A stretch of DNA of 64,000 nucleotides, taken from the NCBI GenBank assembly GCA_023014365.1, contig JAEBUN010000002.1:3162001-3226000 (forward strand), written 5' to 3'. The stretch is from Lepiota brunneoincarnata (taxonomy: Eukaryota > Basidiomycota > Agaricomycetes > Agaricales > Agaricaceae). The notes under the pieces are model-generated. The model was given only the letters and a program-made list of their open reading frames with translations. It was not told where the DNA came from and ran no database searches. The position numbers and the translations under genes are program-made. Of the stretch, positions 26,247-64,000 are shown piece by piece. Numbering within the stretch: the first letter of the stretch is position 1; every line of letters begins with the position of its first letter.

Positions 26247-27547
26247 TGATACGCTGATTTCACACCTATACATGAATTCCGTACTCCGGAACGATTCTCT
26301 ACATAGAATCATTGGCTATATCATTAAAGAACTCTATAGAGGATTGGTACTATATCCCGTAGTAGCCAGTTCGACCGAACTGAGGATATTCGAGCCTCGG
26401 AAGTGTTCAAACCAGCTCATTATCACTAAGCTTAGTGAACCAAGCTATCAGAACGCTCTCCGGAGGGATTCAGGACTCTACATAGCCTATCGAGTATACC
26501 CCGGTCGCATCCAGGGACCTTACGAGCAGTTTTCTGATGAACCCGAATGCGTTTGAACATAAAAGAATGTACCTAGCGGCTGTCGCAGGCGTATTACGTC
26601 TATAGCGAGTTCAATAATGATGACCGGACCATGGAACGGAACGTCCAACGTTCGGGAGGCAATACCCGATGCCCAAAACCCTAGAAACATCAAAGACTCC
26701 TAATTAACGAGTGCTTTGTGGGTCCCGGCACTTTGGCATTCTGCTTAACTGAGATTAATTACAACGGATCAAGGGATTGTCCATCCACTATACATTCCGA
26801 TCATAATTGATCCGGAAACTTAACGCGCTCGCGTGGACGCAGAATAATGCAGCCGAGCACGGAGCACGTCTGGCTGGATTGCCATTCGTTAATCAGAGAA
26901 AAACCCATAACCCAGGGTGAGGTAGAAATGCTGCCGAACCTTCCAAAATGTTCTACAGTGCCTGTAACAATTAAGCTTATTGTTTTCTATTTCATATTTA
27001 CTATCTCTCGTATGTATCTAAACAATATAAATACAGTCGCACTTGTTCGTGGAGAAGAAAGAGGTCTCACCCCCGCTTCCACACGCAAGTCTGCGAGCCG
27101 TGATCAAGAACGGTTTCAGAGGGCTATTTAGTGTGCGTCGTTAAGTGTGATTTCTTCGGTCGTCGACCAACCCAGGGACAGAGACAGAGACCAGAGTTCA
27201 GAGTTTAGAGTTCCAGAGTGCTAGAGACAGAGACAGAGACAGAGACCAGAGTTCAGAGACCAGAGACCAGAGACCAGAGACCCAGCGCTTTGAATTGACA
27301 GGGATTGTCCTTTCATTGTTGCACCGTACGGCTAAGATAACTTCAACGGCTGTTCGTTAACCTCTAAAAACACTACTCTCTTGAATTTCGCTGTCAGAAC
27401 GCACCCCCAGAACACCCTAAAAGACGAAACTGTTCATTATCTATCTCATTCCACTTGTATTAGCTTAAGCTTATTGAATAGCGGCTAAGCTTAGTGAAAA
27501 CGAGCCCCCTATCTATATTAAGACCTACGAAAGTTTCTACCTTTTCA
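26247..27547 (+). repeat. Gypsy-B 5' LTR
   Basis: Contains a 94-aa frame (26272-26556, MNSVLRNDSLHRIIGYIIKE) that stays open in all four LTR copies in the window, a GAGACA/CCAGAGA tandem tract (27178-27290), and four TAAGCTTA palindromes (26427, 26972, 27466, 27486). Confidence 0.93.
27178..27290 (+). repeat. GAGACA/CCAGAGA tandem tract in gypsy-B LTR
   Basis: Short purine-rich tandem units (GAGACA, ACCAGAG, GTTCAGAG), repeated at the same place in the other LTR copies (about 39841-39951, 56360-56475 inverted, 63107-63212). Confidence 0.85.
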
Positions 27548-27549
27548 TC

Positions 27550-27567
27550 TGGAGCCCACCGCGAGGG
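27550..27567 (+). promoter_or_regulatory. Gypsy-B primer-binding site
   Basis: TGGAGCCCACCGCGAGGG, 2 nt after the LTR. The same 18 nt follow the gypsy-C 5' LTR (44329-44346), so both elements use the same tRNA primer, which I cannot name. Confidence 0.75.
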
Positions 27568-28095
27568 GGGTTTTCAGTTGAATTTCACGAGCCAAACACC
27601 AAAAAGACTTGGACACTGGCCCGCCTTTCACCTGCGAAGCAGAAAAAGGTTCAAGCAAAGACCGTAAAGTCACCCAAAACGTCCTTCGAGAACAGTCTCA
27701 GGAAGGTCGACCCCCCAAAACAGAGAACTACTCAGAATTCCAATCGTCCAGAAGGTTCTGAAGGCCTCATCGCCGCTAGTACCTCTCGAAAGCGAAAAGA
27801 TCCTGTTAACTCTCTAGCTGCGAACACAGCGAGTGGTTCAGCAGTTGCAGTATCGAGAGAAGTCGCACTGCCGACCTCTACTGCTCCCAGAATTACACTA
27901 AGGCTTCCAGCCTCAGCTCGCAACATAGCGCATATTCTGCGCACCGAAAGCCAGGACGGCCAGACCATTCCTACGCTAAGCTTAGCGGTTACAAACCAAA
28001 ACTCGTTTCATACGAACCCTCCTGGTGCCTCTACGGTACCACAGATATCACAGTCAACTCCGACTGTACAGACAAACCAAACTACGCCGTCTACG

Positions 28096-29595
28096 ATGAC
28101 TACAGCTAGAAAAATGGGACACGAGCGTATGCCAATTCCCTTTAGCAATAATGCTCCCAGATGGGATGCATCAAAACCACAGACATTGAGAAATTATCTC
28201 TGGACGCTTGAACGGCTCTTCACGATAACGAAGACGACGGACGATGCAGAAAGGATAAATTGGCCAGTGTCATATGTGGACCAGGATATCCGTGAAGAGT
28301 GGATGAGTTTTACAGAGTTCCCAGCAGGAAGCTGGACAGGCTTCGTAGAGAGATTGAAGAAAGAGTATCCCGAGACTGTGGCAGCCGAGCAGGGCTCAGT
28401 GCGACGATTGAGGGAACTCTGCACAGAGAGTAGAGGCATTGCAATGAATGAGGAGCATAGAGTCTTAGACTTCAAAAGGCGATTCATCCTAGAAGCAGAG
28501 AAGTGCCTGAAGTCGCCGGCGGTAGTCTCGAACCGAGAGCTAGTCGAGTTATTTACGAGCGCACTGGACTCCGTGTTCCAGGACGTACTCAATGCGAGAT
28601 TAGCGATCACTGGGGCGCATAGAACCGCGAGCGATGGGTCGGCACTAACTGCGAAGGATTTACGCGAAGAGGACCCCTATGATTGGAGGATCATCGTGGA
28701 TAAAGCCGTCGAAATTTCGATTGGCAAAACACTTATGCGATCCCTTCATCAGGATTCAAGGCCGGTGAACTCGGCATCAATGAGCCATCCACCTGCGACG
28801 TCCGGAACAGGGACTTATGACCCTGTAGTAAAGCGAGAGCTGCAAAGCTTAAAACAGAAGTTTCAGGATGAAGTCTCGCAGATGGCAGGCGGTCTCGCTG
28901 AGCTTAAGGACCTCATGAATATCCAGGGGCATACCTTAAAATCATACTTAGAGAGTTTGGCGAAAGAAGGACATAATCATGCCGGTTATAATCACGCTCA
29001 GAGGAATACCGGAAGTGGGTCGGCAGGATCGCTTTCCGATCGCAAGTGTTTCTACTGCTGGTTATTAGGGCATAGTTGGTTATTCTGCCCAGACATGGAG
29101 GCGGATAAGCAAGCTGGCCGAATTAGAGTTGAAGGGAACAAAATATATATGGGAGATGGCTCGAGTATCCCTCGAGGAGAAGGGCCTATTAAAGAGAAAG
29201 TGGCAAAGTACTATGCGACAAAGGGACAACTCTTTGTTCAGATACCAGAACTGCCGGAGGTTGAGCCTGAGTTACCGCAAGTGCCAACGTCAGCGGTGTT
29301 TGCACAGAGAGCGTTCCCGAGGTCAGAAAACCAAAGGTCACCAGCAGAAGAAGAAGTCCGCCGTCTGAAGCAGCGCATGGAAATGTTAGAGACAGTTGCC
29401 TTCCACGCTGGGAGTGCCCCAAAGGTTAAGCTTATGACCAGAAAGGATGATAATGTCGAGATACAGTCTTTGGCCAAGCAATTGGCCCAGATACAGGCTA
29501 AGCTTAGTGGTTTGACGGATGGTACGCCCTCGGCAAGCCAGTATTTGGACACCAGGAGTGGCGCGAAGACTTGGAACTCGGAGTCGGGTTTCTAA
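28096..29595 (+). CDS. gag: Gypsy-B Gag (499 aa)
   Basis: Structural capsid/nucleocapsid protein. The N-terminal half resembles retrotransposon Gag (APRWDASKPQTLRNYLWTLE; FKRRFILEAEKCLKS). A zinc knuckle with C-x2-C-x4-H-x4-C spacing, CFYCWLLGHSWLFCP, lies at about residues 316-330. A heptad-like Gln/Leu-rich stretch follows near the C-terminus. The next frame overlaps the last 25 nt in the -1 frame. The reading frame is open upstream of ATG 28096, but that ATG is the first in frame. An inverted partial copy is at 63479-64000. Confidence 0.9.
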   Translation: MTTARKMGHERMPIPFSNNAPRWDASKPQTLRNYLWTLERLFTITKTTDDAERINWPVSYVDQDIREEWMSFTEFPAGSWTGFVERLKKEYPETVAAEQGSVRRLRELCTESRGIAMNEEHRVLDFKRRFILEAEKCLKSPAVVSNRELVELFTSALDSVFQDVLNARLAITGAHRTASDGSALTAKDLREEDPYDWRIIVDKAVEISIGKTLMRSLHQDSRPVNSASMSHPPATSGTGTYDPVVKRELQSLKQKFQDEVSQMAGGLAELKDLMNIQGHTLKSYLESLAKEGHNHAGYNHAQRNTGSGSAGSLSDRKCFYCWLLGHSWLFCPDMEADKQAGRIRVEGNKIYMGDGSSIPRGEGPIKEKVAKYYATKGQLFVQIPELPEVEPELPQVPTSAVFAQRAFPRSENQRSPAEEEVRRLKQRMEMLETVAFHAGSAPKVKLMTRKDDNVEIQSLAKQLAQIQAKLSGLTDGTPSASQYLDTRSGAKTWNSESGF

Positions 29596-30704
29596 AGGGT
29601 TCGAGGAAGGAGCCGGCTCTGAAGAAGAAGGTCGCCTTCGCCAGAGGACAGACTCCTGAGGACGTGTCGGATTCTGAGCGATCAGAAGAATCAGAAAATG
29701 AGGAAATAGGGCAGACAACGGAGAAACCAATGCATGCCGCAGCAGGAGAATTACCATATAGAAATGTGAAACCACTGCGCCCGGTCGTTGAGGTACCACC
29801 ACTACCTGTCAGAAGGATGGAACCATCCAAGAAGGAGCCTGCGTATAAGCACCAGGCCCCTATAGAGAGGAATGTCGATGTTGAGGAAGTACTCAGCAGG
29901 GTATTGAAGCGAGAAGCCTCAGTATCGCATGGAGAACTCTTGGCATTGTCACCGATATACAGGAATGCTTATAGAGAGCGCATTATGAGAAAACGGGTAC
30001 CCACGAGTCAAAGCTTAATAGCAGGAGTAGGGCCCGGGGACGATAATACAGAAGATATAGAGATTAATAGTGGGCCAGTACAAGTCATGATAACGGAGTT
30101 GGCAGATGGCTCTCGGAAGTATGATACGGTGCTCCGAGAAGGCTCGGCAACCCAAGCCTGGGTAGCTCAGGATCCAATCATGCAGTACTTGGAGTCACTG
30201 CCCCAAAGAGACAGGGGACGGCAAGTGTTTATTGCGAAAGAATGCGAGTCGTTGAGAGTAGTGCCAACTCTGATAAATGGGATTCGGCAGGAAGAGGCCT
30301 TGCTAGATAGCGGGTCACAGATCGTCTCCATGAGTCAGGAAGCGGCAATTGCATGTCAAGTTTCTTGGGACCCAGATACTACGATAAATTTGCAGAGTGC
30401 GAATGGGCAGGTTGAAAAGACTTGTGGATTGGCAAAGAACGTAGGCTTTACCTGCGGGGGAGTCACAATCTATTTGCAAGTTCACATCGTTCGTAGCCCC
30501 ACGTATCGAGTACTCCTGGGACGACCCTTTGATGTAATGACGGCTAGCAAAGTCAGGAATAGCGCCAGTGGCGAGCAAACCTTGGTTATTACGGACCCAA
30601 ATACCAGAGAAAGGGCTGTGTTACCAACTTATGCTCGAGGAGAGTGTAATCCTCCTAAGCTTAGGGAAAACAGTCAAAATTTTCAAGAAACCTCGATGAG
30701 TTGA
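29571..30704 (+). CDS. Gypsy-B protease-containing frame (377 codons)
   Basis: Aspartic protease domain around codons 235-330: [19 protein letters not shown] (active-site DSG) and the flap/C-terminal [12 protein letters not shown]. The frame has no ATG at its start (TTG 29571) and overlaps the gag end in the -1 phase, so expression by -1 frameshift from gag is the simplest reading. It ends at TGA 30702-30704, where pol takes over in a further -1 frame. Confidence 0.85.
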
Positions 30705-33700
30705 CTGAGGGACAAGGAGAGGTGGCTTGTATAATAGACTATGATGATGAGAAGGGCCCTGTCGTCGCACAAACACTAAGCTTAGCAAAAGGAAGCTTCT
30801 CAGAGGCCGAGCTACAGCTAATGTTCATTGACCGAGTCATACGCGATGAGGACTGCCCACAGGAAGATAAAGCAACGGCGTTATTGTGCCTAGGACGCAT
30901 AGCCAACACGCAGGGCACAGAGGACCAGGGAATAACTGTCTTCGAAACAGAAGAAGATGACAAAGATATGGTACAATGCCTGGCTGGGAAGAAATATAAA
31001 CCAGTAGCCTTAAAAGTGAGGCCAGTGTTGGGTGATCTACCGGAGAGATTCAGGATAAAACGAGAAATAAAAGGGGACCCACTGGCAGAAATGCCTGAGC
31101 TTAGCGTGCATCCTCCAGAGTTTGTCCCGACAGGCAGATATATGGAGGAGCGTAAGCTTAAGCTGGACGAAGCCCATGCAGGGGATTTCTTGTGGCCAGA
31201 GGAAAGAAAGCTGATGCACCACATCATGATGCTTCAAGAAAAGGCATTCGCCTGGACAGATGAGGAAAAGGGATGTTTTAGGGAAGATTTCTTCCCGCCG
31301 ATCGAGATACCGATGGTAGAACATACTCCATGGGTTGAGAAACCCATTCTGATTCCACCAGCGATCTATGATGAAGTTTGTGCCATTATAAAGAGAAAGA
31401 TTAGTGCTGGTGTATATGAGCCGTCAAACTCATCCTATAGATCCAGATGGTTCTGTGTGGTGAAGAAAGATGGGAAAAGTTTGAGACTGGTACACAGCTT
31501 GGAACCGCTGAACAAAGTGACGATAGCGCATTCAGGACTGCTGCCAGCAACGGAAGATTTGGCAATGCACTTCGCAGGCAGAGCTTGCGGAGGCATTCTG
31601 GATCTATATGTTGGCTATGACGAACAACTGTTAGCTGAGTCGTCTCGGGACTTAACAACGTTCCAGACACCTTTTGGAGCGCTACGCTTAGTGACGTTAC
31701 CCATGGGATGGACCAATTCAGTGCCTATATTTCATGAGGATGTAACAGCGATCCTAACCAGTGAGATACCAGAATACACGATGCCGTACATAGATGATGT
31801 ACCTATCAGAGGACCCAAAACTAGATATGAGTTGCCAGATGGCACGGAAGAGACGCTGAAAGGAAACCCAGGGATCCGACGATTTGTATGGGAACACATG
31901 CAGACGGTCAATAGGATTCTACAGAGGATGAAATACGTAGGAGGAACCTTCTCTGGGCCCAAGACGACTATCTGCGCTGATGAAATCACTGTAGTGGGTT
32001 TTGAATGCTCTTATAAAGGACGGTTGCCTGCCACAGACACCATTGGGAAGATATTAAGATGGGGGGATTGCGAGAATGTCTCCGAGCTAAGGGGTTTTCT
32101 AGGAACAGCTACGCGCTGCAGGAATCATATCCCAAAGTTCATAGCCATTGCTGCACCTCTATATGAAAAGCTTAAGAAAGGGCAAGAGTTTGAATGGGGA
32201 GAAAATGAACGGAAAGCACAGCAGGAGCTGAAAGATGCAATTCAACGCTGTTTCCCGACCAGGAACCCCGAATTCCCGGGTAAACAACCCATAGTAGTAG
32301 CCGTGGATACCTCATGGAGGGCGGTGGGATACTACATATATCAGCGAGATGGAGAAGATGCTAAGCTTATACATTATGCGAAGTTTGGGTCAATATTGTT
32401 GGACGAGAGACAGCAGAGGTATTCTCAGCCCAAGCGAGAGCTATGCAGCTTAAGAATGGTGCTGGAACAGGAGAAATATTTGTTGTGGGGATCGAGAAAT
32501 CTAGTAGTGGAAACAGACGCGAAGTTTCTCTTTGGGATGTTAAACAACCCAGGAAAACTCCCGAATGCTACTGTAAACTGTTGGGTGGACTTCATTAGAT
32601 CGTTCCACTTCACACTAGTACACAAAGAAGGAAAGACATTTGGGCCGGATGGACTGTCCAGACAATGTTACTATCCCGGTGATGAGAGAGCCCGTCATTT
32701 CGACGACGGATCCGAGGACGAGGGAGAGGAGTTCGAGTTGATCAAAGGAGATCTGGGGGCTGCAGATCCGTTACCCTTGGAAGCCTTCTGTGATGAGATC
32801 GACAGTCGCTCTGGCTTCTACCAGGGTCTGGCGCGTGATGTGTATGATTTTGAGTATGAGCTGGATCAAGCTCGGGAAGAGTACTTGGATGAACAACAGG
32901 CTAAGCTTAGGGTTATAGAAGACCCAGCGTGCCCAGAAAACCACCGACAAGTACTAAGCTTAATGACGGATGTCAGGCTAGTGCCAGATTTCGAAGAGGA
33001 AAAGTTGACCGAGATAGAGGAAGCGTATGATGAATCGCATAGGACAGATACAGCGCGAATACAAGACGGAAGAATACCCAAAGTCAGGGAATACCTGAAA
33101 ACAGGGGGCAGTAGCGCAGCTGAAGGCTTGGATGAGCCGGATCTGCGTAAGCTTAAGCATATGGTGGAGCATTTCTTCTTGGACAAAGAGGGGAGACTGT
33201 ATAGGATGAGCCCTAGCGGTCAGCATCAGCTAGTAGTGGATAAGGAGCAACGTATGTATATGTTGCGAGCCAGCCACGACTTCCTAGGACACAGGGGAAT
33301 ATACGCAACCACTAAGCTTATAACGCAGAGGTTCTGGTGGCCGGAAGTTGAAGGAGACGTAACTTGGTATGTGCAATCATGCCATCTATGCCAGCAACGA
33401 CAAAAGGCAATCATCGAGACGCCGCCAATAGTAACGCCCATGCCGTCGATATTCCAAGTGCTACATGTGGACACACTACATATGACGCCAAGTTCTAATG
33501 GGTGTAGTTATATTGTGCATGGAAGGTGTGGACTGTTGTCCTGGATGGAGGCAAAAGCTTTGAGAAAAGAGAATGCTAGTTCGATTGCGCAGTGGTTATT
33601 TGAAGATATCATTTGCCGATGGGGCTGTATAGTGAAGATTGTCACGGACAACGGTTCTCCATTTAAGAAAGCTGTTCGATGGCTGGAAGAAAAATATGGG

Positions 33701-34450
33701 ATAAAAGGAGTAACGATATCTCCTTACAATTCCAAAGCGAACAGGATTATTGAAAGAGCCCACTGGGATGTGCGGCAAATGTTGTACAAAGCTACAGATG
33801 GAGATGTCAAAAAGTGGTATTGGCACCTACCGCACGTTATGTGGGCAGATCGGATAACCATTAGAAAAGGAATGGGGTGTTCCCCGTACTTTCTGGTAAC
33901 CGGAGTGCACCCGACGCTACCTCTGGATGTCAAAGAGGCCACTTGGCTAGTACAACTACCAAATAAGTACTTAACCACGGCCGAGTTAATAGGATACCGA
34001 GCTCAGGCTTTGGCAAAACATGTTCGGCATGTTGAGGAGGTGCGTCAGCGTGTTTCAGACACTAAGCTTAGCAAGGCTTGGGAGATGGAACGACAAGCAG
34101 CGCATAAGATAAAAGATTATCGCTTCGGCCTGGGAGATTTAGTATTAGTGAGAAACACAGCTATAGAGAGCTCAGCAGACAGGAAGATGAAACCCAGGTA
34201 TCTAGGACCCATGGTGGTCATATCTAGATCGAAGGGAGGATCATATATCCTGGCAGAGTTGGATGGCTCTGTATGGCAGAATAAAGTGGCGGCGTTCAGA
34301 GTAATTCCCTACTTAGCCAGAAAACATATGCCGTTGCCGCTGGAGTTACAAGAGTTGTTAGATCTGTCACCAGAGGGACTGAAGACCCTGGAGGAGACTA
34401 CTGAGGATGAGCCTAGTGACAGATGGGAGCCAGAAGAGTTGGAGGGATAG
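30701..34450 (+). CDS. pol: Gypsy-B Pol: RT, RNase H, integrase (about 1249 codons)
   Basis: [42 protein letters not shown], and the YIDD box in [12 protein letters not shown]. RNase [46 protein letters not shown]. Integrase: HDFLGHRG with CHLCQQR (HHCC zinc), [38 protein letters not shown] (DDE); C-terminal [11 protein letters not shown] and [20 protein letters not shown]. No chromodomain is visible. The frame is uninterrupted and starts at TTG 30701 directly at the end of the protease frame (-1 overlap), so it is probably made as a fusion. Close in layout to gypsy-C Pol. Confidence 0.93.
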
Positions 34451-34499
34451 AAAAAACCTGATATTGTGGACAGAACTATCTACTTATCGAAGGAAAACT

Positions 34500-35872
34500 A
34501 TCCTGGGGACTGTAAAAGCATTAAGCTTAAGCGGGGGAGGACTTGTCCAAGTCGGAAAGGTTGCGCAAAAGGCTTTTGAGACGGATGCGCTCTTGAATGA
34601 GGAATTGGAACCTTTTAAGTTGGCTTCGAGCGAGGGAATAGCATCGATGAAGTCCCGGCTGAGCGAATTGAGGTCGCATTTGACTGACCGAGCGTCGTCA
34701 CCGCGAGATTCGGATTCGTACTTGTCGCGAGAGTGAGACAGGAGGTTTTGGAGTTCCTGGAGCAAACGAGCTGCCCGGGAGAAGTGTCAGTACCGTTAAG
34801 CTTAGCGAAGAGAAGTGAGAAATTGCCCACCAGATAAGCCCGCAAAGGTGCGCTCATCGGAAGCAGACTTGGTACAGGCGCACTTGGCAGTATTGGCGCT
34901 GGCTTTGGCTAGAACCTGTTCAGCCCGGACATAACAGCAGTGTTTAGTGTTCATATTGGGAACTTGACAATAGGAAAGAAGACGGACGGTGCCTTTAGAC
35001 GATGAGGACTTTTTGACGGTCTCCTAAAGAGGGAGGAAGTCAGAATCAGTGGTTGGGGGGAGTGGAGCTGGCGCACCACATCGGAGGTAGACAAACGACG
35101 CTTGCGATAAGGCGAGACTACACGAACCTCTTCGACGATAGCTTGAGAGACCTCCTCATCGACCATCATGTCCTGGAGGCGAGCGATTATCTCAGCCAAT
35201 GTAATAGGTTGAGAAGCAGCTATATTACCGTGTCAGCACCAGTTGCTCGGGAGTTGGAAGCACTGGGCATACTCTCAGCAAGCTTGGTATCGGTGTCTAC
35301 CACAACAGCAGCAGAGACAGGGGCCTTGCGACCTTTGCGAGGCTAAGCTTATACATGAGGAGACGATTGGAGCCAAAAGAACGCTAAGCTTATGCGTTTG
35401 GGGACAGCAGAGCCTTCGGCAATGTTGGAGGAAGTAGAGCCAGTCGTGGACGATGGGTTCTGAGCCTCTTCGGTCCTGGATTTGTGGGATTCTTCGGAAC
35501 AAACGCGATTAATGCGGCTACAGCATTCAGAGAGCGCCTTATAGATCGCGGGCATCTCATAAGACGAATGGTAGTTGTTTTGGTAAATTTCATAGAGCTT
35601 GCAGATACGGAAGATGTAGTCCTGGTTGACATGAAGCTTGATAGCCTCATTATCCTCCGATAACGCTTCAATATAAGCAGACTAGAAATGATTTGGAAAC
35701 GGCGAGAGAAGCATGGAAAGAGTAGACATACCCCAGGGGCGTTGAACGCAAGGAGAGCCTTCTCGACGAGGGGACGAGCGACTTGGCTGTTTTGCAGGCG
35801 CTGAAGATGACCTTTGGCGTTGCTGATGAGATCGTCGAGCTCAACCTGGAGATGGGGGATAGAAGAAGCCAT
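34500..35872 (-). CDS. Antisense multi-exon gene in gypsy-B (unknown function)
   Basis: Minus-strand gene between pol and 3' LTR. Exon 1 runs 35872-35732 (MASSIPHLQVELDDLISNAK), then a 50-bp GT-AG intron (35682-35731). Exon 2 runs from 35681 (SAYIEALSEDNEAIKLHVNQ), with stop TAA at 35349. Further protein-like blocks continue downstream: LAEIIARLQDMMVDEEVSQA (about 35160), a Cys-rich block YCQVPNMNTKHCCYVRAEQV (about 34920), and RLLQELQNLLSHSRDKYESE (about 34760). They suggest more exons, but one junction near 35220 needs a 1-nt shift. Helix-rich, with no family recognised. The first two exons are well supported; the extent beyond them is uncertain. Confidence 0.5.
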
Positions 35873-36557
35873 TTTCTTGCGAAGGGTGTCTGCTAGAATG
35901 AGACGTCGCTCCCTCGCTTTTATAAGAAAAGGCCGTAGGCAGTGATGACGAATCATAACAAGTGGATGAAGAGCACCCTCCACCCTAAGCTTATGACCTG
36001 AGGGGCCTAGGAAACCTGTAATCTTGAGTAGCCAGCCTTCGACAGACTTGCTGAACCACAGTTGCCTTATTAGGTAACATGTCGCCAGGGTCTCGCGGTT
36101 ATCAGTGTGCACAGGGATTCTGATGGAATGGTGAGGGCACCAATTGCAATTTGGCTAGGGGGAGATGGGTCCCAAGGGGTGCTTCAGTTTGACAGTTTGA
36201 TGTGAGCTTTTTCGCGAAGAGCTTCTTCAAACATTGTGGACAGGCTGGTTCGGGCTTGTAAGTAAACTGGAGTGGATGAGCTGGGTCACTACGCGTTGCG
36301 GGTCACGGCGCGCTGAGATGTCAATAAACATCACTGATAGATCAGAGAGGCATATAATGGGTATATAAGTGACTGGCAACCTAAACTAGCTTAGGAGTCT
36401 CCCAGGAGGTCTTTAGCTTAGCTTTAGGAGATGACAAGAAAGTCAAAAACAGTTTAGCTTAACTCAGTAGGAGACAAGGAACAACAAGATGACTATTGGG
36501 ATGTATATACATGACAAGATTATATACTACATCCAAGAAGTAAACTAGGCGCAGAGA
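35873..36557. other. Non-coding stretch between the two antisense genes of gypsy-B
   Basis: No domain-bearing frame. It contains TTTAGCTTAGCTTTAGG-type AT-rich repeats (36410-36460) and one TAAGCTTA (35986-35993). It could hold the promoter of the 34500-35872 gene. Confidence 0.4.
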
Positions 36558-38588
36558 TCACTCAAGGTCTTCTAGAACAGACTCCAGATCCTGAGTCATC
36601 GGGAAAGCGAGGAAGAGAAGCGATTTGAGCTCCTCGAATTCCTCGTATGTCAGGACCCCCAGAAAGTTGTTGGCAAACTCAAAGAACGCCCGAACGTCTT
36701 CAAGGGAGTCAGCCATACCCATCTCTACAAAAGCCACGTCATTACCATCCAAGGCAGTCCTGGTAGCTTGCATCTCCTGGACGAATTGATAAACTACACG
36801 GCGGTGGTGAAACGCCGAAGCCTCGTAAGCGACGCGGTTCGCCTCCAGGCTGACCAAGCTAGAGGACACAACACGCGCGAACATGGCCAGATCTAGAAAA
36901 ATAAAGAGAATAAGAAAAGGGAAAAATAGTGAACAGAGAAACTTACGGTATTCACTGGTCAGTGAGGATGTGACCAGGGCGTTCGCAATGCCGGCCGAAA
37001 CCCAGGGATGGTCCACGAAGGTACAAGGGTAGTTGTACAAGTCGCAGCTGCGACACTTCTTACCCTTGCCCAGAGGCTCGCACTCCAACTTATGAGCAGC
37101 GCAAGAAGGACACCGAGACCGAGGTGGCACGTACTGGAGCAGATGTCAAAGCCATCAGTAAGGAACCACGAGAAAACTTGGAGAACGTACCGAAAGCTGG
37201 CTAGCTGCCAGCAGCCTAGGAAAGTCCTTACAAAAGAGCGGGACTGGGTGCCGGTATCCATGGTCCCGAATAATTTCGGCCTCAGAGCGCCGAACGCGAG
37301 CCCGGGGAATGTATTTCTTCGTCCGCGTGTTGGAACTCTTCTTGGACGAAAGGACGTGTTGTTGACGCGACGGGCCAGCATGAGGGGACTCTTGAGGGAT
37401 CTCCGGAACCACCGGGCTAGGCAAACGAGAAAGGACGGGGGTCGGAGAAGCTAAGAACGCGTCTTGAAAAACAAAAGTCAGTTCTTGAGGGGCAGGCGAA
37501 GGCTCCAGAAGGAGCTCCAAATCTGGAGAAGGAGAAATCTCCACGGCGCTTGCGGGAGACGCGACTGGAGCGCCAGCTAAGTGAGGTGGTGATGGTGTTG
37601 GGCACCTAGGCGAAGCCAGCACCTGTTGCCCATCCAGAGAAGAGGACCAGCTAAAGATTTTGAAGAGGTCGGCTTGAGAGATCTCAGGGACTGGAGAACG
37701 CGATGACGAGTTAGAACCCGCCAGGAATAAGGGGAGAGGGGGCGGCGTCGATGATTTCGCCCTCTGTTTGCCTTTAAGGGCAGCTGGTATACGCGCTAAA
37801 GCAGAAGTCAGCGGAAAGAACAAATATATCGTGAAAAACGACTAAGCTTACGCGTTGAAGTAGCAGAAGAGAGTACGGGGGAAGAAGGCCGGTTTGTTGA
37901 AGGGCCCGGCACCTCCGAACCTGATGCAATACCCAAGGGAGGGAGCACCAGCGAGTCTTCCTCGTCCAGGGTGCGCAGAGAGATGGCGAGAGGGGGCAGC
38001 GACATTGAACTGGACGAAGCCTCTGTGGATAATCCACCAGAGGGCCCGCCAACGGGGATACCTGACGAGGGTTCTGCGGAAAATCCGGCAGAGTGCTCGT
38101 CGGTTGGATTGCACAACGACGCGATGGAAATCATGCGTCTTGGCACTGGAGCGTACAAAGGAGAGGCCGGCGGAGGAGTTGGTTCGCGGGGCGGAGAGTA
38201 TGGTGGAGGAGGGGTCCTTGCCACACCCACCTGACGATTTCCGCGAGCCCCTCAAGCTCCTCGCCCTCCTCTAGCCCTCCTAGTACGCAGTGCTGGTGGT
38301 TCCCATTGAGGTAGGAGGTTGCGACGTGCTGGGAGGCAAATAGTGAGACCTAAAAGTAGAGAAAACATAAGTAAAGACAACGAGAACAGGGGAAAACGCG
38401 ACTTACGTTGCGCGATCGATGATGAAGGCGCACCTTGGGAAGCCGTTGAGGCGTTGCTCGGCCCAGGGTAGCCTGAAAACAGTGTTAAGAAAACAGAGAA
38501 AACTGTAACTCGAACTCTACTTACTGGAAGAAGAGTCCGAGTCCTCCTCGTAGCGAGCACATTTGCTGCTGCGCGTGTTTCTGTCCAT
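36558..38588 (-). CDS. Antisense spliced gene in gypsy-B encoding a Zn(II)2Cys6-like protein
   Basis: Several GT-AG introns can be read on the minus strand: 38473-38524, 38350-38406, about 38155-38230, 37797-37851, 37134-37190 and 36893-36946. Product in order: short N-terminus (MDRNTRSSKCARYEEDSDSS), a block SLFASQHVATSYLNGNHQHC leading into GGLEEGEELEGLAEIVR, a long Ser/Pro-rich middle, then six cysteines spaced C-x2-C-x6-C-x8-C-x2-C-x6-C (CPSCAAHKLEC ... CRSCDLYNYPC, about 37020-37115), then a helical C-terminus ending EDLE at 36558. The Cys spacing fits the fungal binuclear zinc cluster, usually a DNA-binding domain. The joint of the first two exons does not keep phase, so the start may be wrong or a frameshift is present. 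The last three exons are phase-perfect. Confidence 0.6.
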
Positions 38589-38915
38589 TGTTGATAGAAG
38601 TGAGCATTGAAAAGTGAATATGCGAGCACAATAGACGAGTAAGAAGTGAGAGGGAGAACAAAGGAGATGAAACGAGACCTTGGGACATTTAAAAGACCCA
38701 ATAAAGAGATAAAAATTTAAGCTATAGCAACAAGAAGTTGATCTATACATTTAAACTCAGTGACATGACATCATTCTGAAATAAGCTTAGCGAAAGTGCA
38801 CTACCCTCGAAGCTGGTGAACGTTCTAGACCATAGAGCGCGTCAGAGAGACTCAGATACTGCGAATTTGAAGGAGATAATGACTGAGGACAGTCAGCAAT
38901 TTGGTTAGGGGGAGA

Positions 38916-40214
38916 TGATACGCCAATTTCACGCCTATACATGAATTCCGTACTCCGGAACGATTCTCTACATAGAATCATTGGCTATATCATTAAAGAA
39001 CTCTATAGAGGATTGGTACTATATCCCGTAGTAGCCAGTTCGACCGAACTGAGGATATTCGAGCCTCGGAAGTGTTCAAACCAGCTCATTATCACTAAGC
39101 TTAGTGAACCAAGCTATCAGAACGCTCTCCAGAGGGATTCAGGACTCTACATAGCCTATCGAGTATACCCCGGTCGCATCCAGGGACCTTACGAGCAGTT
39201 TTCTGATGAACCCGAATGCGTTTGAACATAAAAGAATGTACCTAGCGGCTGTCGCAGGCGTATTACGTCTATAGCGAGTTCAATAATGATGACCGGACCA
39301 CGGAACGGAACGTCCAACATTCGGGAGGCAATACCCGATGCCCAAAACCCTAGAAACATCAAAGACTCCTAATTAACGAGTGCTTTGTGGGTCCCAGCAC
39401 TTCGGCATTCTGCTTAACTGAGATTAATTACAACAGATCAAGGGATTGTCCATCCGCTATACATTCCAATCATAATTGATCCGGAAACTTAATGCGCTCG
39501 CGTGGACGCAGAATAATGCAGCCAAGCACAGCACGTCTGGCTGGATTGCCATTCGTTAATCAGAGAAAAACCCATAACCCAGGGTGAGGTAGAAATGCTG
39601 CCAAACCTTCCAAAATGTTCTACAGTGCCTGTAACAATTAAGCTTATTGTTTTCTATTTCATATTTACTATCTCTCGTATGTATCTAAACAATATAAATA
39701 TGGTCGCACTTGTTCGTGGAGAAGAAAGAGGTCTCACCCCCGCTTCCACACGCAAGTCTGCAAGCCATGATCAAGAACGGTTTCAGAGGGCTATTTAGTG
39801 TGCGTCGTTAAGTGTGATTTCTTCGGTCGTCGACCAACCCAGGGACAGAGACAGAGACCAGAGTTCAGAGTTTAGAGTTCCAGAGTGCTAGAGACAGAGA
39901 CAGAGACAGAGACCAGAGTTCAGAGACCAGAGACCAGAGACCAGAGACCCAGCGCTTTGAATTGACAGGGATTGTCCTTTCATTGTTGCACCGTACGGCT
40001 AAGATAACTTCAACGGCTGTTCGTTAACCTCTAAAAACACTACTCTCTTGAATTTCGCTGTCAGAACGCACCCCCAGAACACCCTAAAAGACGAAACTGT
40101 TCATTATCTATCTCATTCCACTTGTATTAGCTTAAGCTTATTGAATAGCGGCTAAGCTTAGTGAAAACGAGCCCCTTATCTATATTAAAACCTATGAAAG
40201 TTTCTACCTTTTCA
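38916..40214 (+). repeat. Gypsy-B 3' LTR
   Basis: 1299 bp, nearly identical to the 5' LTR. It retains the 94-aa frame (38941-39225), the purine tandem tract and four TAAGCTTA sites (39096, 39639, 40133, 40153). Confidence 0.93.
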
Positions 40215-54936: not shown

Positions 54937-56096
54937 GGTTAGGGCAGCGGTTAAGCCCTCTGATGAGCCCCTTTGCAAGGGCAAAACCTGCATAAGTCCC
55001 CCCATCAGTGTGACAAGACATGACTGACAGTCAATGTTGGGTATGTGCCTATGCCACTTCGATGTTTTGCACCTTCTCCAGACATCAACTGGAGATCAAC
55101 CCGAGTACACAAAATTTTGAGAAGCAAAACCCTGGAAGCAAGAAGATTAGTGGATGTGTCTGGGGGGACTCATTGTGCGCTACATAAGGTAGACAACAAA
55201 GAATTCAATCTGACATGTGCCAACATCAGGCCGATCCTTGAGCATAGAAAAGAAGGTGTGGGGCAAGCAGGTTCTCAGTACCGACCATTGCCCAGCCTAA
55301 CCACAGTGGGAGGAATCATAAGGGAGAATGATTTGTTGGACCTTTGACAACTGCCGACTTGGACAAGTTTGTGTCAAAGCGTTCACATCACCTACTATTG
55401 CAAACTGGAGAGCCTTGGTGTGCTTGGGGCAGACTACCCTGTGCACCCACTAATTATTGCTTGAGTGCTGCATAGGCTTTACACCCTGTCTTCTCGAAAT
55501 CACCAAGTGGTCACTGCTCTTTTCAGGAATACTGGAACTCATGTTCTCACACAAGTACTCCTGTTGTGCTCTTGCCTCATCATCGCTTCCCATCATCTGC
55601 AGATTTCTCTATTCCCACCACCATCTTCTGGTGACCCTTTGCTCTCTCCAGATGTACTCCCTCATACCCACCTGATCTTATTCAAAATACAAGACTGTAG
55701 CTCAGGCTACCTTGTGAATTCCAACCTCTGAATCTGAACTTATGTAGCACACAATGAGTCCCCCCAGACACATCCACTGAACTTCTTGCTTCCAGGGTTT
55801 CGCTTCTCAAAATTTTGTGTACTCAGGTTGATCTCCAGTTGATGTCTGGAGAAGGCACAAAACATCGAAGTGGCATAGGCACATACCCAACGTTGACTGT
55901 CAGTCATGTCTTGTCACGCTGATGGGGGGACTTATGCAGGTTTTGCCCTTGCAAAGGGGCTCATCAGAGGGTTTAACCACTGCCCTAACCTGCCTTGGCT
56001 CATGTAGCAACAGAATTAGACTACCTAACTTAGGATGGCTGTGGGGGAGTATGAATCAATATATTCATTGATCTGCTGGACTGGCTAGCATGCCAG

Positions 56097-57606
56097 TGAA
56101 AAGGTGGAAACATTTGTGGGTTTTAATATAGATAAATAGCTTGTTCTCACTAAGCTTAGTCAAAATTTGATAAGCTTAAGTTAATACAAGTAGTATGAGA
56201 TAGATAATGAACAGTTTCATCTTTTAGGGTGTTCTGGGGGTGCATTCTGACAGCAAAATTCAAGAGAATAGTGTTTTTAGAGGTTAACAAACAGCCGTTG
56301 AAGTTATCTTAGCCATATGGTACAACAGTGAAAGGACAATCCCTGTCAATTCAAAGCGCAGGGTCTCTAGTCTCTGGTCTCTGGTCTCTGAACTCTGTTC
56401 TCTGTCTCTGTCTCTGTCTCTAGCACTCTGGAACTCTAAACTCTGTTCTCTGTTCTCTGTCTCTGTCTCTGGGTTGGTCAATGACCGAAGAAATCACACT
56501 TAACAACGCACACTAAATAGTCCTCTGAAACTGTTCTTGATCACGGCTCACAGACTTGTGTGTGGAAGCGGGGGTGAGACCTCCTTTTTTCTCCACAAAC
56601 AAGCATGACCGTATTTATATTGTTTAGATACATGCAAGAGATAGTAAATATGAAATAGAAAACAATAAGCTTAATTGTTACAGGTACTGCAGAATATTTT
56701 GGAAGGTTTGGCAGCATTTCTACCTTGCCCTGGGTTATGGGTTTTTCTCTGATTAACGAATGGCAATCCAGCCAGACATGTTCCATGCTTGTCTGCATTA
56801 TTCTGCATCCACATGAGCACGTTAAGCCTCCAGATCAATTATGATTGGAATGTATGGCATATGTACAATCCCTTGATCCATTGTAATTAATCTCAGTCAG
56901 GCAGTATGCCAAGGTGCCAGGACCCACAAAGCATGTTGAAACAAGCTCAAGAGGGTGGATAAACGGCAACGTATATTGGCAAGAGCGAAACAACAGCGGG
57001 GTGGGGAGTAAACAGACAAGGGTATCTACTCATAGACTCGGTGCATATATTCTAGCTACAACGTGGCATCCATGAGGCAGTCATGTGATCTCGGAAGTCG
57101 GCATTCCATCAGTTTGCCAAAATCACCAATTCCTACAAAGCACTCATTAATTATGAGTCTTTGATATGTCTAGGGTTTTGGGCATTGGGTGTTGCCTCCC
57201 AAATGTTGGACGTTCCGTTCCGTGGTTTGGTCATCATTATTGGGCTCACTATGGGTGTAATACCCCTGCGACAGCCGCTATGTACATTCTTTAGGTTCCA
57301 ACAAATCCGAGTTCATCAGAAAACTGCTCATAAGGTCCCTTGATGTGACCAGAGTATACTTGATAGGCTATGTAAAGTCCGGAATCCCTCTGGAGAGCGT
57401 TCTGATAGCTTGATTCACTAAGCTTAGTGATAATGAGCTGGTTTGAACACTTCCGAGGCTTGAATATCCTCAGTTTGGTCGAACTGGCTACTACAGGACA
57501 TAGTACCAATCCTCTATAGGGTTCTTTAATGATATAGCCAATGATTCTATGTAGAGAATCGTTCTGGAGTACGGAATTCATGTATAGGCATGAAATTGGC
57601 ATATCA
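56097..57606 (-). mobile_element. Solo gypsy-B LTR in the right arm, itself interrupted
   Basis: Reverse-orientation LTR of 1301 bp plus a 204-bp insertion; 4-bp duplication CCAG (56093-56096 and 57607-57610). Four TAAGCTTA sites kept. The 94-aa LTR frame is still open (within 57291-57725). Confidence 0.92.
56934..57137. mobile_element. 204-bp LTR-like insertion in the solo gypsy-B LTR
   Basis: TGTTGAAACAAG...AATTCCTACA flanked by AAGCA (56929-56933 and 57138-57142). Its TG...CA ends and 5-bp duplication indicate a very short solo LTR of an unseen family. Confidence 0.7.
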
Positions 57607-57869
57607 CCAGGGTGCCTCCGGGACCCCGTACAGGTAGGTAGGAAGGGGGGGCTGGGCCTGGGGCATCCCTCCCACTCAGGACCCCTCACGGCATGGTTAC
57701 CTAATGAGAGGCCGGCCCACTGCATAGTCTTTTACACTACAGCTTTTTTGTCTGTCTGTCTGTGCGTAATTCCTTAGCCAGATCCTTACTTAAGCATCAG
57801 GCCAGCCATCTCCGAAGATAGGGCAGCAAGCTGCAAAAGTACGAGGTCTTGGAATTGAACCAAGACATC

Positions 57870-60264: not shown

Positions 60265-62177
60265 ACAGACTGAGTTCTTGAGCAAAATGCTTGACCTTTG
60301 GCGACGCAAGAGCTTTCGTAAAAACGTCGGCAACCATTTCTTCGGTAGGGCAATAGATTAGCCTTAATTTTCCTTCCTCGATGATCCATCAAATAAAATG
60401 ATACCGAATATCAATGTGTTTTGTTCTCACATGATATTGATGGTCCTTTGCAAGCGTGATTGCAGACTGGTTGTCCAAGAAGAGAGTGGTGGTGGGAAGG
60501 GGGGTGCCGAAAACCTGCGAAATAAGGGAGCACAGCCAAAGAATCTCTTTGGCTGCATGGATTGCTGCTACGTACTCAGATTCTGTTGTTGATAGAGTGA
60601 CTATCTCCTGCCATTTTGCACTCCAGGAAACAGCCCCTCCATTGATAATAAGTGCATAACCAGATGTAGCACGACGGTCCTCAGCCATGTTGCCGTCTGC
60701 ATTGCTGTACCCTGTAAGATCTTGGCCATGGCCTCCATAAGTGAGCCAAAGTTCTCGAGTGCCTTTGAGGTAACAAAAAACGCGTTTGACAGCATCCCAG
60801 TGAGCCTCACCTGGGTTTTTCAGATAGTGGGAGAGGTGTTGAATGGCATATGCAATATCGGGACAAGTGCCTAGGGCAGCATACATGAGGGTGCCCACAG
60901 CTTCCTGATAAGGAACTTGGGCCATCCGAGCAATTTCGGCTGTCGATTTCGGTGCTGTGTCAACTGTAGTGTGGGTGGATGGGTCCATAGGCACACTGAG
61001 TGGTTTGGCATCTTCCAAACCGAAGCGACAAAGCAAGGTGTCGATGTAGGATTGCTGGGACATGAAAATTTTTTGGTTTGTGCGGTCTCGTTTGATCTCA
61101 ATGCCTAAGAGCCAGTGCAGCTCTCCTAAGTCCGAAATTTCAACAAAGCCAGATATTCCAGACTTTGTCCAGGCAACTAGAGCGATTTTAGTGGCTGCCA
61201 GTGTACAGTCATCGACATGGACTAGAATGATGGTGAGATCAGGAGGTGTATCTTTAAAAAACACACTCTAATCGACTTCACATCTTGTGAAGCCAAGATT
61301 GTCCACCAGGATCTTGCATAATTTTTGATACCATCATCAGCCAGACTGTTTGAGCCTGTAGAGAGTTTTTTGGAGGTGGCAGAGCTTGTGAGGATGTAGG
61401 GGATCGCAGTAACCAGGAGGCTGTGACATGTAGACAACTTTGTTGTTGTTCAGCTGACCGTTTAGGTAAGCACCCTTTATGTCTATCTGGTGCAACTCCA
61501 TGTCCCTTGCTGCTGCGATGGCCAGCACTGCCCGAATCGATGCCAGATGTGCTACTGGAGCAAATGTGTTGAAGTAATCTACTCCAGGCACCTGTGAAAA
61601 TCCTTGCACGACAAGCCTGGCCTTGTACTTGACAACATTGCCAGCTGGATCCTTCTTGGCTCGAAAAACCCACTTCGAGCCCACTCAATTTACGCCAGGT
61701 GGTGTGTCCACTAGTTCCCATGTCCCTGCAGCTTTGAGGGTAGCTAACTCCTCCTTTATTGCGCTCTCCCATAGTGGCCAGTCCACTCGTTCTCTAGCCT
61801 CTTTGAGGCTTCCTGGTTCCAATGCCTCAACAGACTCCATTTCGGCTGCTAGGGCATGCACGTCCTCCCAATCTAGCTCCTCAGCCATCATTACGGCTGT
61901 TCCCTCAAGGATTTCACAAGCTTTTGGGCTTGGCATGTGGATACGTTGTGGACGGTCACTCTGGGGCAGGTCCTGGTTGTCTGTCTTTGTTGGCAGTTGT
62001 ACCACTGACTCTGGGGGGTTCGTTGGGACCTCTAGTGGCTTGCTAAGGGTTTTGGCACTTGTTTGTGGCTGGCTTGGGGGTTGTATGGTGGTCTGGTGCA
62101 TGGTGAGTGGTTGCTCACTGCGAATCTCACTGATTGGCACATTCTCCCCCTCGAGATTTGCCTCCTTTCTGAAACGG
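60265..62177 (-). pseudogene. Copia-B RT and RNase H region
   Basis: Upstream linker (62194-61685) and RT start VDWPLWESAIKEELATLKAA; RT motifs GSKWVFRAKKDPAGNVVKYK, RLVVQGFSQVPGVDYFNTFA, ELHQIDIKGAYLNGQL, then IILVHVDDCTLAA (HVDD box). RNase H YSNADGNMAEDRRATSGYAL and TTESEYVAAIHAAKEILWL; C-terminal CPTEEMVADVFTKALASPKV, end about 60265. Stops and shifts at about 61685, 61337 and 61268 break the frame. Less CpG-decayed than copia-A. Confidence 0.88.
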
Positions 62178-63478
62178 TGATATGCCAATTTCACGCCTAT
62201 ACATGAATTCCGTACTCCGGAACGATTCTCTACATAGAATCATTGGCTATATCATTAAAGAACTCTATAGAGGATTGGTACTATATCCCGTAGTAGCCAG
62301 TTCAACCGAACTAAGGATATTCGAGCCTCGGAAGTGTTCAAACCAGCTCATTATCACTAAGCTTAGTGAACCAAGCTATCAGAATGCTCTCCAGAGGGAT
62401 TCAGGGCTCTACATAGCCTATCGAGTATACCCTGGTCGCATCAAGGGACCTTATGAGCAGTTTTCTGATGAACCCGAATGTGTTTAAACATAAAAGAATG
62501 TACCTAGCGGCTGTCGCAGGCATATTACGTCTATAGCGAGTTCAATAATGATGACCGGACCACGGAACGGAATGTCCAACGTTCGGGAGGCAATACCCGA
62601 TGCCCAAAAACCTAGAAATATCAAAGACTCCTAATTAACGAGTGCTTTGGGGGTCCCGGCACTTCGGCATACTGCTTAACTGAGATTAATTACAACGGAT
62701 CAAGGAATTGTCCATCCGCTATACATTCCGATCATAATTGATCTGGAAATGTAACGCGCTCGCGTGAACGCAGAATAATGCAGATGAGCACGGAACACGT
62801 CTGGCTGGATTGCCATTCGTTAATCAGAGAAAAACCCATAACCCAGGGTGAGGTAGAAATGCTGCCGAACCTTCCAAAATGTTCTACAGTGCCTGTAACA
62901 ATTAAGCTTATTGTTTTCTATTTCATATTTACTATCTCCCGTATGTATCTAAACAATATAAATACGGTCGCACTTGTTCGTGAAGAAGCAAGAGGTCTCA
63001 CCCCCGCTTCCACACGCAAGTCTGCGAGCCATGATCAAGAACAGTTTCAGAGGGCTATTTAGTGTGCGTCGTTAAGTGTGATTTCTTCGGTCGTCGACCA
63101 ACCCAGAGACAGAGACAGAGACCAGAGTTCAGAGTTTAGAGTTCCAGAGTGTTAGAGACAGAGACAGAGACAGAGACCAGAGTTCAGAGACCAGAGACCA
63201 GAGACCAGAGACCCAGCGCTTTGAATTGACAGGGATTGTCCTTTCATTGTTGCACCATACGGCTAAGATAACTTCAATGGCTGTTCGTTAACCTCTAAAA
63301 ACACTACTCTCTTGAATTTCGCTGTCAGAACGCACCCCCAGAACACCCTAAAAGACGAAACTGTTCATTATCTATATCATTCCACTTGTATTAGCTTAAG
63401 CTTATCGAATTGCGGCTAAGCTTAGTGAAAACAAGCCCACTATCTATATTAAAATCTACGAAAGTTTCTTCCTTTTCA
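62178..63478 (+). mobile_element. Gypsy-B LTR at a composite junction
   Basis: Full 1301-bp LTR (TGATATGCC...CCTTTTCA) with four TAAGCTTA sites and the 94-aa frame open. Left neighbour is copia-B, right neighbour is an inverted gypsy-B gag. The flanking 4-mers ACGG (62174-62177) and CCGT (63479-63482) are not a direct duplication but each other's reverse complement. Confidence 0.9.
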
Positions 63479-64000
63479 CCGTCGCTCACGGTTCTACGCG
63501 CCCCGGTGATCGCTAATCTCACATTGAGTACATCCTGGAACACCGAGTCCAGTGCGCTTGTAAATAACTTGACTAGTTCTCGGTTCGAGACTACCGCCGG
63601 CGACTTCAGACACTTCTCTGCTTCGAGAATGAATCGCCTTTTAAAGTCCAAGACTTTATGCTCCTCATTCATCGCAATGCCTCTACTCTCTGCGCAGAGT
63701 TCCCTCAATCGTCGCACTGAGCCCTGCTCGGCTGCCACAGTCTCAGGATACTCTTTCTTCAATCTCTCCACGAAGCCTGTCCAGCTTCCTGCTGGGAACT
63801 CCGCAAAACTCATCCACTCTTCATGGATATCCTGGTCCACATATGACACTGGCCAATTTATCCTTTCTGCATCGTCCGTCGTCTTCGTTATCGTGAAGAG
63901 CCATTCAAGCGTCCAGAGATAATTTCTCAATGTCTGTGGTTTTGATGCATCCCATCTGGGAGCATTATTGCTAAAGGGAATTGGCATACGCTCATGTCCC
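63479..64000 (-). pseudogene. Gypsy-B gag fragment, inverted, running off the window
   Basis: Minus-strand copy of gypsy-B gag from about codon 3 (MPIPFSNNAPRWDASKPQTL at 63987) to codon about 180 (AITGARRTVSDG), where it meets the LTR. Few substitutions compared with 28110-28635 (for example Glu to Lys, Arg to His), no stop. The rest of its element is beyond 64000. Confidence 0.9.

Follow-up and report, generated by a model that had tools for sequence, protein, structure and literature searches.

The window analysed here, a 64,000-nucleotide stretch of the Lepiota brunneoincarnata genome, contains a Ty3/Gypsy long terminal repeat (LTR) retrotransposon, gypsy-B (26247-40214), with 1.3-kb LTRs, gag, protease and pol, and, in the interval from pol to the 3' LTR, two antisense genes named X and Y. 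A perfect 8-bp palindrome, TAAGCTTA, is present at 27 exact sites within this element, 23 once the 3' LTR is set aside. These sites are real, concentrated in gypsy-B, absent from the homologous pol positions of a sister family and conserved beyond what sequence context accounts for. The original prediction had supposed that the word is selected as a protein-binding site, and selection on TAAGCTTA as a double-stranded DNA site of a symmetric protein is well supported by element copies, codon shuffles and Lys-Leu (KL) codon usage. All copy and motif surveys were made in this one genome (55.6 Mb in 95 contigs). An exact search recovered all 27 predicted coordinates and no additional exact site in 26247-40214. 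The sites, listed without strand together with one near-match, are:

26427-26434, TAAGCTTA, 5' LTR, exact match
26972-26979, TAAGCTTA, 5' LTR, exact match
27466-27473, TAAGCTTA, 5' LTR, exact match
27486-27493, TAAGCTTA, 5' LTR, also inside the open gag frame
27977-27984, TAAGCTTA, gag, Leu-Ser-Leu (LSL)
29427-29434, TAAGCTTA, gag, KL
29499-29506, TAAGCTTA, gag, KL
30656-30663, TAAGCTTA, protease open reading frame (ORF), KL
30777-30784, TAAGCTTA, pol, LSL
31096-31103, TGAGCTTA, one base off TAAGCTTA, site intact in three diverged gypsy-B copies
31153-31160, TAAGCTTA, pol, KL, missing in the copy at C1:456-466k, which has a site 57 bp upstream
32362-32369, TAAGCTTA, pol, KL
32902-32909, TAAGCTTA, pol, KL
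32955-32962, TAAGCTTA, pol, LSL
33148-33155, TAAGCTTA, pol, KL
33313-33320, TAAGCTTA, pol, KL
34063-34070, TAAGCTTA, pol, KL
34522-34529, TAAGCTTA, on the minus strand could contain the TAA stop of gene Y (tentative, by eye)
34797-34804, TAAGCTTA, antisense gene Y region
35344-35351, TAAGCTTA, antisense gene Y region
35385-35392, TAAGCTTA, antisense gene Y region
35986-35993, TAAGCTTA, between antisense genes X and Y
37843-37850, TAAGCTTA, intron 5' end in the model of antisense gene X (C, then GTAAGCTTAG after the boundary)
38782-38789, TAAGCTTA, spacer from antisense gene X to the 3' LTR
39096-39103, TAAGCTTA, 3' LTR
39639-39646, TAAGCTTA, 3' LTR
40133-40140, TAAGCTTA, 3' LTR
40153-40160, TAAGCTTA, 3' LTR

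At the 23 distinct sites the palindrome is preceded by C in 15 cases and followed by G in 10. The prediction that many sites are extended to CTAAGCTTAG applies to 8 of the 23. Placement within gypsy-B is indifferent to strand and to coding status, and this indifference to strand, frame and gene border, together with the perfect palindrome and its symmetric flanks, fits a homodimeric DNA-binding protein. Regular spacing was rejected, the coefficient of variation being 0.86 compared with 0.94 for random placement, and the spread of sites over 12.7 kb with such random-like intervals resembles a coat or mark over the copy in its entirety more than a promoter element. A frameshift or splice signal was also considered as a general role and rejected: two sites (29499 and 30656) are close to frame ends and a third (37843) falls at a splice site, with no such signal noticed at the others in the absence of a systematic search. 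The gag, protease and pol frames overlap at 29508-29592 and 30665-30704, overlaps directly preceded by the sites at 29499 and 30656, the latter reading AAG CTT AGG.

TAAGCTTA ranks first in abundance among the 8-mers of the window, where its 37 sites comprise the 27 of gypsy-B, eight in two extra gypsy-B LTR copies and two others. The latter (40765 and 59988) fall one in each inverted copy of another repeat, the copia-B LTR of the original prediction, which had correctly named these LTRs as the only location outside gypsy-B LTR copies; they are probably due to chance and could represent a borrowed site. No site was present in 1-26246 or in the gypsy-C element, again as predicted. Within the internal region (27548-38915) 19 sites were observed where 0.16 are expected from dinucleotide frequencies, whilst the runner-up palindromic 8-mer has 3 copies and the 24 single-mismatch words (counts pooled over both strands) have 3 copies each at most. 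AAAGCTTA and TAAGCTTT combined have 3 internal occurrences against 0.44 expected, and the three predicted AAAGCTTA near-matches were found at 28844, 30010 and 32167.

Codon use does not generate this abundance. When synonymous codons of the gag, protease and pol frames were shuffled (n=5000), the mean number of sites was 0.12 and the maximum 3, compared with 13 observed, a figure that includes the site at 27486, where the gag frame is still within the LTR; such codon-preserving shuffles had been named beforehand as a check. So had a synonymous bias at KL codons, and 11 of the 15 KL pairs in these frames are indeed spelled AAG-CTT, against 0.85 predicted by single-codon use. Similarly, 6 of 16 Ser-Leu (SL) pairs are spelled AGC-TTA where 0.51 are expected. 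Nor do the encoded residues appear to be what is maintained: at the eight pol sites the KL or SL pair was matched in nine relatives in 4 of 70 comparisons, against 24 of 70 for other such pairs of this protein, and tetrapeptides at pol sites are weakly conserved (mean identity 0.29 compared with 0.57 over all windows, resampling P 0.002). Flanking sequences of different sites are about as similar as those of random places (mean 0.31 and 0.29). Composition, codons, protein constraint and duplicated flanks thus do not account for the site count.

Genome-wide, TAAGCTTA occurs 5370 times, whereas TTAGCTAA, a palindrome of identical dinucleotides, is unenriched at 419; for CTAAGCTTAG the count is 2011, compared with 39 for its reversed control. 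Seven stretches of the window were surveyed and a comparable palindrome was found in gypsy-B only, the other six containing one TAAGCTTA in total. A sister family, family D, has a Pol with 63% amino-acid and 61% base identity to that of gypsy-B, and each of its copies (L062, with L063 at 98% identity to it and L066 at 96% over part) contains one TAAGCTTA. At eight of eight pol sites the homologous family D bases differ from TAAGCTTA at 4-6 of 8 positions, so the sites were evidently gained separately, and we infer that they were acquired singly, via point changes, where the protein tolerated change. TAAGCTTA is absent from both gypsy-C and a further gypsy element, L065, which has no comparable palindrome either. 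In family D another word, TAG[GT]TAAC, occurs 11 times in the 9.9 kb of L062 (reverse strand, C1:684600-694550), 9 of them in one orientation, where about 0.8 are expected, and L063 has 9 copies. Although it could be a dispersed word particular to family D, it is not claimed as one because L066 keeps only 4 of the 6 TAGNTAAC places covered.

Conservation was examined in other gypsy-B copies, which are numerous: 40 were scored from 194 candidates at 94-99% identity over a 1.5-kb pol piece, excluding the window itself (L031), which was also left out of the copy counts. In the other sequence searches the scored part of the candidates was 37 of 2364, 150 of 225, 150 of 1043 and 150 of 173. A further 29 pol copies retained every site that fell inside aligned sequence. 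The more diverged copies L061, L064 and the one at C1:456-466k (7.4, 8.8 and 5.5% different) kept 16/16, 16/16 and 16/17 sites, respectively, whilst CpG-free control words were kept at 66-74% (P 0.002-0.018 each). For all 32 copies, trinucleotide-context rates taken from the same copies predict 42.2 changes of motif bases and 1 was seen. When each variant is counted once, a step that considerably lessens the interdependence of the copies, and seven LTR copies are added, 18.7 events are expected and 3 seen (Poisson P 9.5e-6). The site set for this count includes 31096, which is lost in the window copy; the set of copies leaves out L006, which repeats the LTR of L004. With L006 included, LTR copies kept 29 of 30 sites and had 1 change compared with 8.4 expected; L002, L012 and L013 are without LTR. 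The only internal site of the window set to be lost is 31153, in the C1:456-466k copy, and it lies 57 bp from the 31096 site that all three diverged copies possess, as expected if neighbouring sites turn over where density outweighs exact place. The sample of copies thus bears out the expectation that the motif would be kept at homologous positions.

These data bear on the view that no selection is involved and that the sites are a by-product of composition, codon use or mutation, or of the spread of a tiny repeat. Words free of CpG outlast CpG decay and could mimic conservation, and in the pol region private changes are few (1 compared with 5.2 expected), with no shared changes where 3.9 are expected. 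The deficit of changes nevertheless persists against both trinucleotide-context expectations and CpG-free control words; codon shuffles fail to produce the sites, their flanks are unrelated, TTAGCTAA is unenriched, and the six other window stretches and L065 are without a comparable palindrome. For the site count this view is already largely refuted, and overall we consider it extremely unlikely.

A role in RNA, with the self-complementary UAAGCUUA serving dimerisation of the genomic RNA, packaging by Gag or particle assembly, would draw on the fact that the sites fall in the presumed genomic RNA and that an 8-nt palindrome can self-pair between two RNAs. The predicted local unpaired probability is 0.30 at the sites compared with 0.37 for composition-matched words, not significantly lower (0.11 of resamples), so that RNA kissing loops are unsupported by predicted accessibility; the symmetric flanks, and a placement that ignores strand and gene borders, also suit DNA better. 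This role appears quite unlikely. An integration or self-targeting mark, by which integrase or an accessory protein would pick or avoid gypsy-B DNA (nesting or transposition immunity), would call for sites over the whole element if self-avoidance is needed, and the window does hold rearranged or nested elements, yet the sole target duplication examined (CCGC, by eye) is without the motif. We regard such a mark as very unlikely. Packaging and integration, both put forward in the original prediction, are therefore less well supported than binding by a protein, as accessibility is not raised and the CCGC duplication is unlike the motif.

The question of which protein might bind the sites leads to the coding content of gypsy-B, the features of which are:

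26247-27547, plus strand, 5' LTR (TG...CA), 98.2% identity to 38916-40214, motif at LTR positions 181, 726, 1220 and 1240
27478-29592, plus strand, gag open frame (stop to stop) starting within the LTR, assigned by position, CCHC knuckle by eye
29508-30701, plus strand, aspartic protease open frame (PF13975, 6.4e-8)
30665-34447, plus strand, pol open frame, reverse transcriptase (RT)-RNase H-integrase (PF17919, PF17917, PF17921)
34522-35872, minus strand, antisense gene Y, multi-exon, exon 1 35872-35732 and exon 2 from 35681, remainder unmodelled
36558-38134, minus strand, antisense gene X, four exons modelled from splice sites and frame (38134-37852, 37795-37191, 37133-36947 and 36892-36558), 5' end uncertain
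38916-40214, plus strand, 3' LTR, assigned by identity to the 5' LTR, 4-bp flanking duplication CCGC by eye

Antisense gene X encodes, in its exon 37133-36947, a Zn2Cys6-like pattern C-x2-C-x6-C-x8-C-x2-C-x6-C, found once in gypsy-B by script and preceded by a basic stretch noted by eye; the spacing definition of fungal Zn2Cys6 clusters is C-x2-C-x6-C-x5-12-C-x2-C-x6-8-C. Across 12 fetched copies the last two exons of X gave nonsynonymous to synonymous (pN/pS) ratios of 0.15-0.47, with one stop codon in 3 of the 12, and the six cysteines were intact in 11, the remaining copy having Tyr for Cys. No match to X or Y was found in L062 and L066 of family D, in L065 or in gypsy-C, which formed the comparison set, L063 being left out. 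Among the four gypsy families compared, gypsy-B alone thus has an antisense Zn2Cys6-like gene under purifying selection. Y accompanies X in gypsy-B copies (149 scored of 199 candidates).

A second body of data concerns silencing. In five listed gypsy-B copies CpG decay is 23-83%, compared with 1-5% at other C/G positions, so that these elements seem to be methylated by the host. CpGs within 50 bp of TAAGCTTA have decayed about 5 points less than those elsewhere (gypsy-B copies over 29900-34600 together with L061 and L064), which is only suggestive of local protection.

The explanation that we favour joins these data. TAAGCTTA, as the core of CTAAGCTTAG, would be a double-stranded DNA site for a dimeric protein, with about 23 sites selected element-wide, and the binder would be the element's own X, countering silencing; on this proposal as a whole our confidence is evenly divided. 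Gypsy-B would have been selected to hold about 23 sites over its full length, gaining them one at a time through point changes, and the antisense-encoded Zn2Cys6-like X, possibly with Y, would coat integrated copies (or complementary DNA) of its own family. Copies so coated would be kept from, or freed of, CpG-methylated silent chromatin, a benefit confined to the family of X. A bolder formulation, which we offer tentatively and with rather less than even confidence, is that of a self-recognition code, in which an accessory protein encoded on the opposite strand would bind a palindrome placed every ~560 bp across LTRs, gag, pol and accessory genes, proteins would be changed where needed, and each copy would be marked as self against silencing.

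Several observations weigh against this explanation. X scored 13.6 bits against the Pfam Zn-cluster model PF00172, for which the cut-off is 21, and AlphaFold2 modelling of X exon 3 (8 sequences) was poor, with a mean predicted local distance difference test (pLDDT) score of 56.8. Known Zn2Cys6 proteins mostly bind CGG half-sites and TAAGCTTA is without CGG. The link between X and the motif amounts to a single family in which both occur, the other three having neither. The dip in CpG decay is weak, with circular-shift P 0.006 at 50 bp and 0.03 at 20 and 30 bp (uncorrected for the six radii used) and no effect from 75 bp; other C/G transitions are slightly reduced within 25 bp of sites too (0.011 compared with 0.012-0.019), leaving the dip compatible with local protection by a bound protein without proving it. 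Heavy CpG decay in older gypsy-B copies means that any protection is incomplete. As to selection itself, each of the 29 close pol copies taken alone does not depart from control words (P 0.16-0.88), so that the case depends on the pool and on the three diverged copies. Private changes, too, are scarce, and since post-insertion changes should be neutral, this scarcity may in part be due to infrequent mutation of the word, or of DNA with protein bound to it, rather than to selection.

Searches for relatives of X gave no further guidance. The ORF of its Zn-cluster exon had none in the protein database at E 0.001 (331 candidates), spliced residues 256-469 had none at E 1 (979 candidates), and solved structures gave no meaningful match. 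No Pfam model scored above its cut-off in X or the modelled part of Y. The weak PF00172 match, poor AlphaFold model and lack of a database relative make X a plausible but unproven binder. The idea in the original prediction of a Zn-cluster binder with an anti-silencing role thus fits in that X is under purifying selection and, of the four families compared, was found in none but the one bearing the motif, whilst X as binder is a candidate.

The main rival to a factor encoded by the element is a host protein (a transcription, architectural, replication or nuclear-tethering factor) that binds the sites and is exploited by gypsy-B. The motif evidence is the same for both, a palindrome is a generic dimer site and DNA binding by X is unproven. 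Against a host factor, family D, gypsy-C and L065 of the same genome make no use of the word. The 100 genome places listed (contig C1, up to 876 kb) are mostly clustered at the spacing of gypsy-B copies or LTRs as judged by eye, and alignment confirmed four LTRs, an internal copy and a pol copy among them. Three loci with isolated sites, among those checked, had no LTR match. We consider a host protein unlikely, and continue to prefer X as the candidate binder.

Precedent for binding by an element-encoded protein is provided by VANC proteins, which bind short family-specific VANDAL motifs and bring about loss of methylation throughout the element (PMC5735166, PMC10398659). In the passages of these papers that describe them, the motifs (YAGTATTAY; AGTTGTCC/AC) are non-palindromic, lie in noncoding tandem repeats and were multiplied by repeat formation (PMC5735166, PMC10398659). 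Gypsy-B resembles this system as described there in having a short family-specific motif that is rare in relatives, one or more element-encoded accessory proteins and host silencing by CpG methylation, the last deduced in gypsy-B from CpG decay. The mode of action proposed for X would resemble VANC/VANDAL anti-silencing, transferred to an LTR retrotransposon with isolated sites in protein genes. In contrast to gypsy-B, a fungal Gypsy retrotransposon, VANDALs are Mutator-like DNA transposons of Arabidopsis; the gypsy-B motif is palindromic, isolated and both coding and noncoding (13 sites in open frames) rather than in noncoding tandem repeats; and binding and demethylation have been demonstrated for VANC, whereas X is a candidate only. 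Pfam indicated no VANC homologue in X or the modelled part of Y, whilst gypsy-B does show the motif density that such a system calls for.

A further parallel is offered by plant Retand Gypsy elements, in which the long region separating pol from the 3' LTR is described as carrying antisense genes that encode predicted DNA-binding proteins (PMC11963269), the same place as in gypsy-B. The passages concerning that region report tandem repeats there and no dispersed gag/pol motif (PMC11963269). The Retand proteins are described as having TRP28 (PF04195), which was not among Pfam results for X or the modelled part of Y. Among the papers listed for TAAGCTTA no title concerned transposons, and among those listed for LTR or fungal elements (dispersed or palindromic motifs, antisense genes, Zn proteins) no title described such a motif. 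Many short protein-binding sites are also present in En/Spm (CACTA) elements, where element-encoded TnpA binds subterminal motif arrays, and in Drosophila gypsy, where host Su(Hw) binds an insulator. The sites of those elements form clusters, at the ends or in the 5' untranslated region, whereas gypsy-B sites are spread over coding sequence.

Classification of gypsy-B itself is based on its paired LTRs, TG/CA ends and the CCGC target duplication seen by eye, and on the order gag, protease, RT-RNase H-integrase with integrase last, for which Pfam identified protease, RNase H and the integrase H2C2 domain. RT was assigned via alignment to gypsy-C, itself matching PF00078. Pfam searches gave no family match for the gag frame and no chromodomain in pol. 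The nearest Pol match from a named organism is Agabi119p4_2520 of Agaricus bisporus (65% identity), and no DNA of close Pol relatives was found in viral contigs using six peptide patterns. Two further LTR copies lie downstream in the window:

56090-57613, minus strand, diverged gypsy-B LTR copy, ~90% identity, 4/4 LTR sites kept (56151, 56171, 56666 and 57419)
62175-63481, plus strand, further gypsy-B LTR copy, 96% identity, 4/4 LTR sites kept (62358, 62903, 63397 and 63417)

The second of these runs directly into inverted gag sequence of the same family, making 62175-64000 a rearranged or nested copy in which 63479-64000 has 95% identity to 28116-28637 in reverse complement.

By what means a transposon distinguishes chromatin of its own from that of the host, and avoids silencing without also releasing competing elements, is still an open problem, with VANC as one well-studied answer. 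The data presented here suggest that gypsy-B has a tag likely read by a protein, perhaps the element's own. If so, gypsy-B would be a second, independent case, in a retroelement whose coding sequence has been rewritten for a dense family-specific palindrome, and to our knowledge such a system would be new to both retroelements and fungi. It would mean that coding sequence can be rewritten to carry a chromatin code, and serves as a warning that the evolution of transposon proteins can be shaped by codes at the DNA level.

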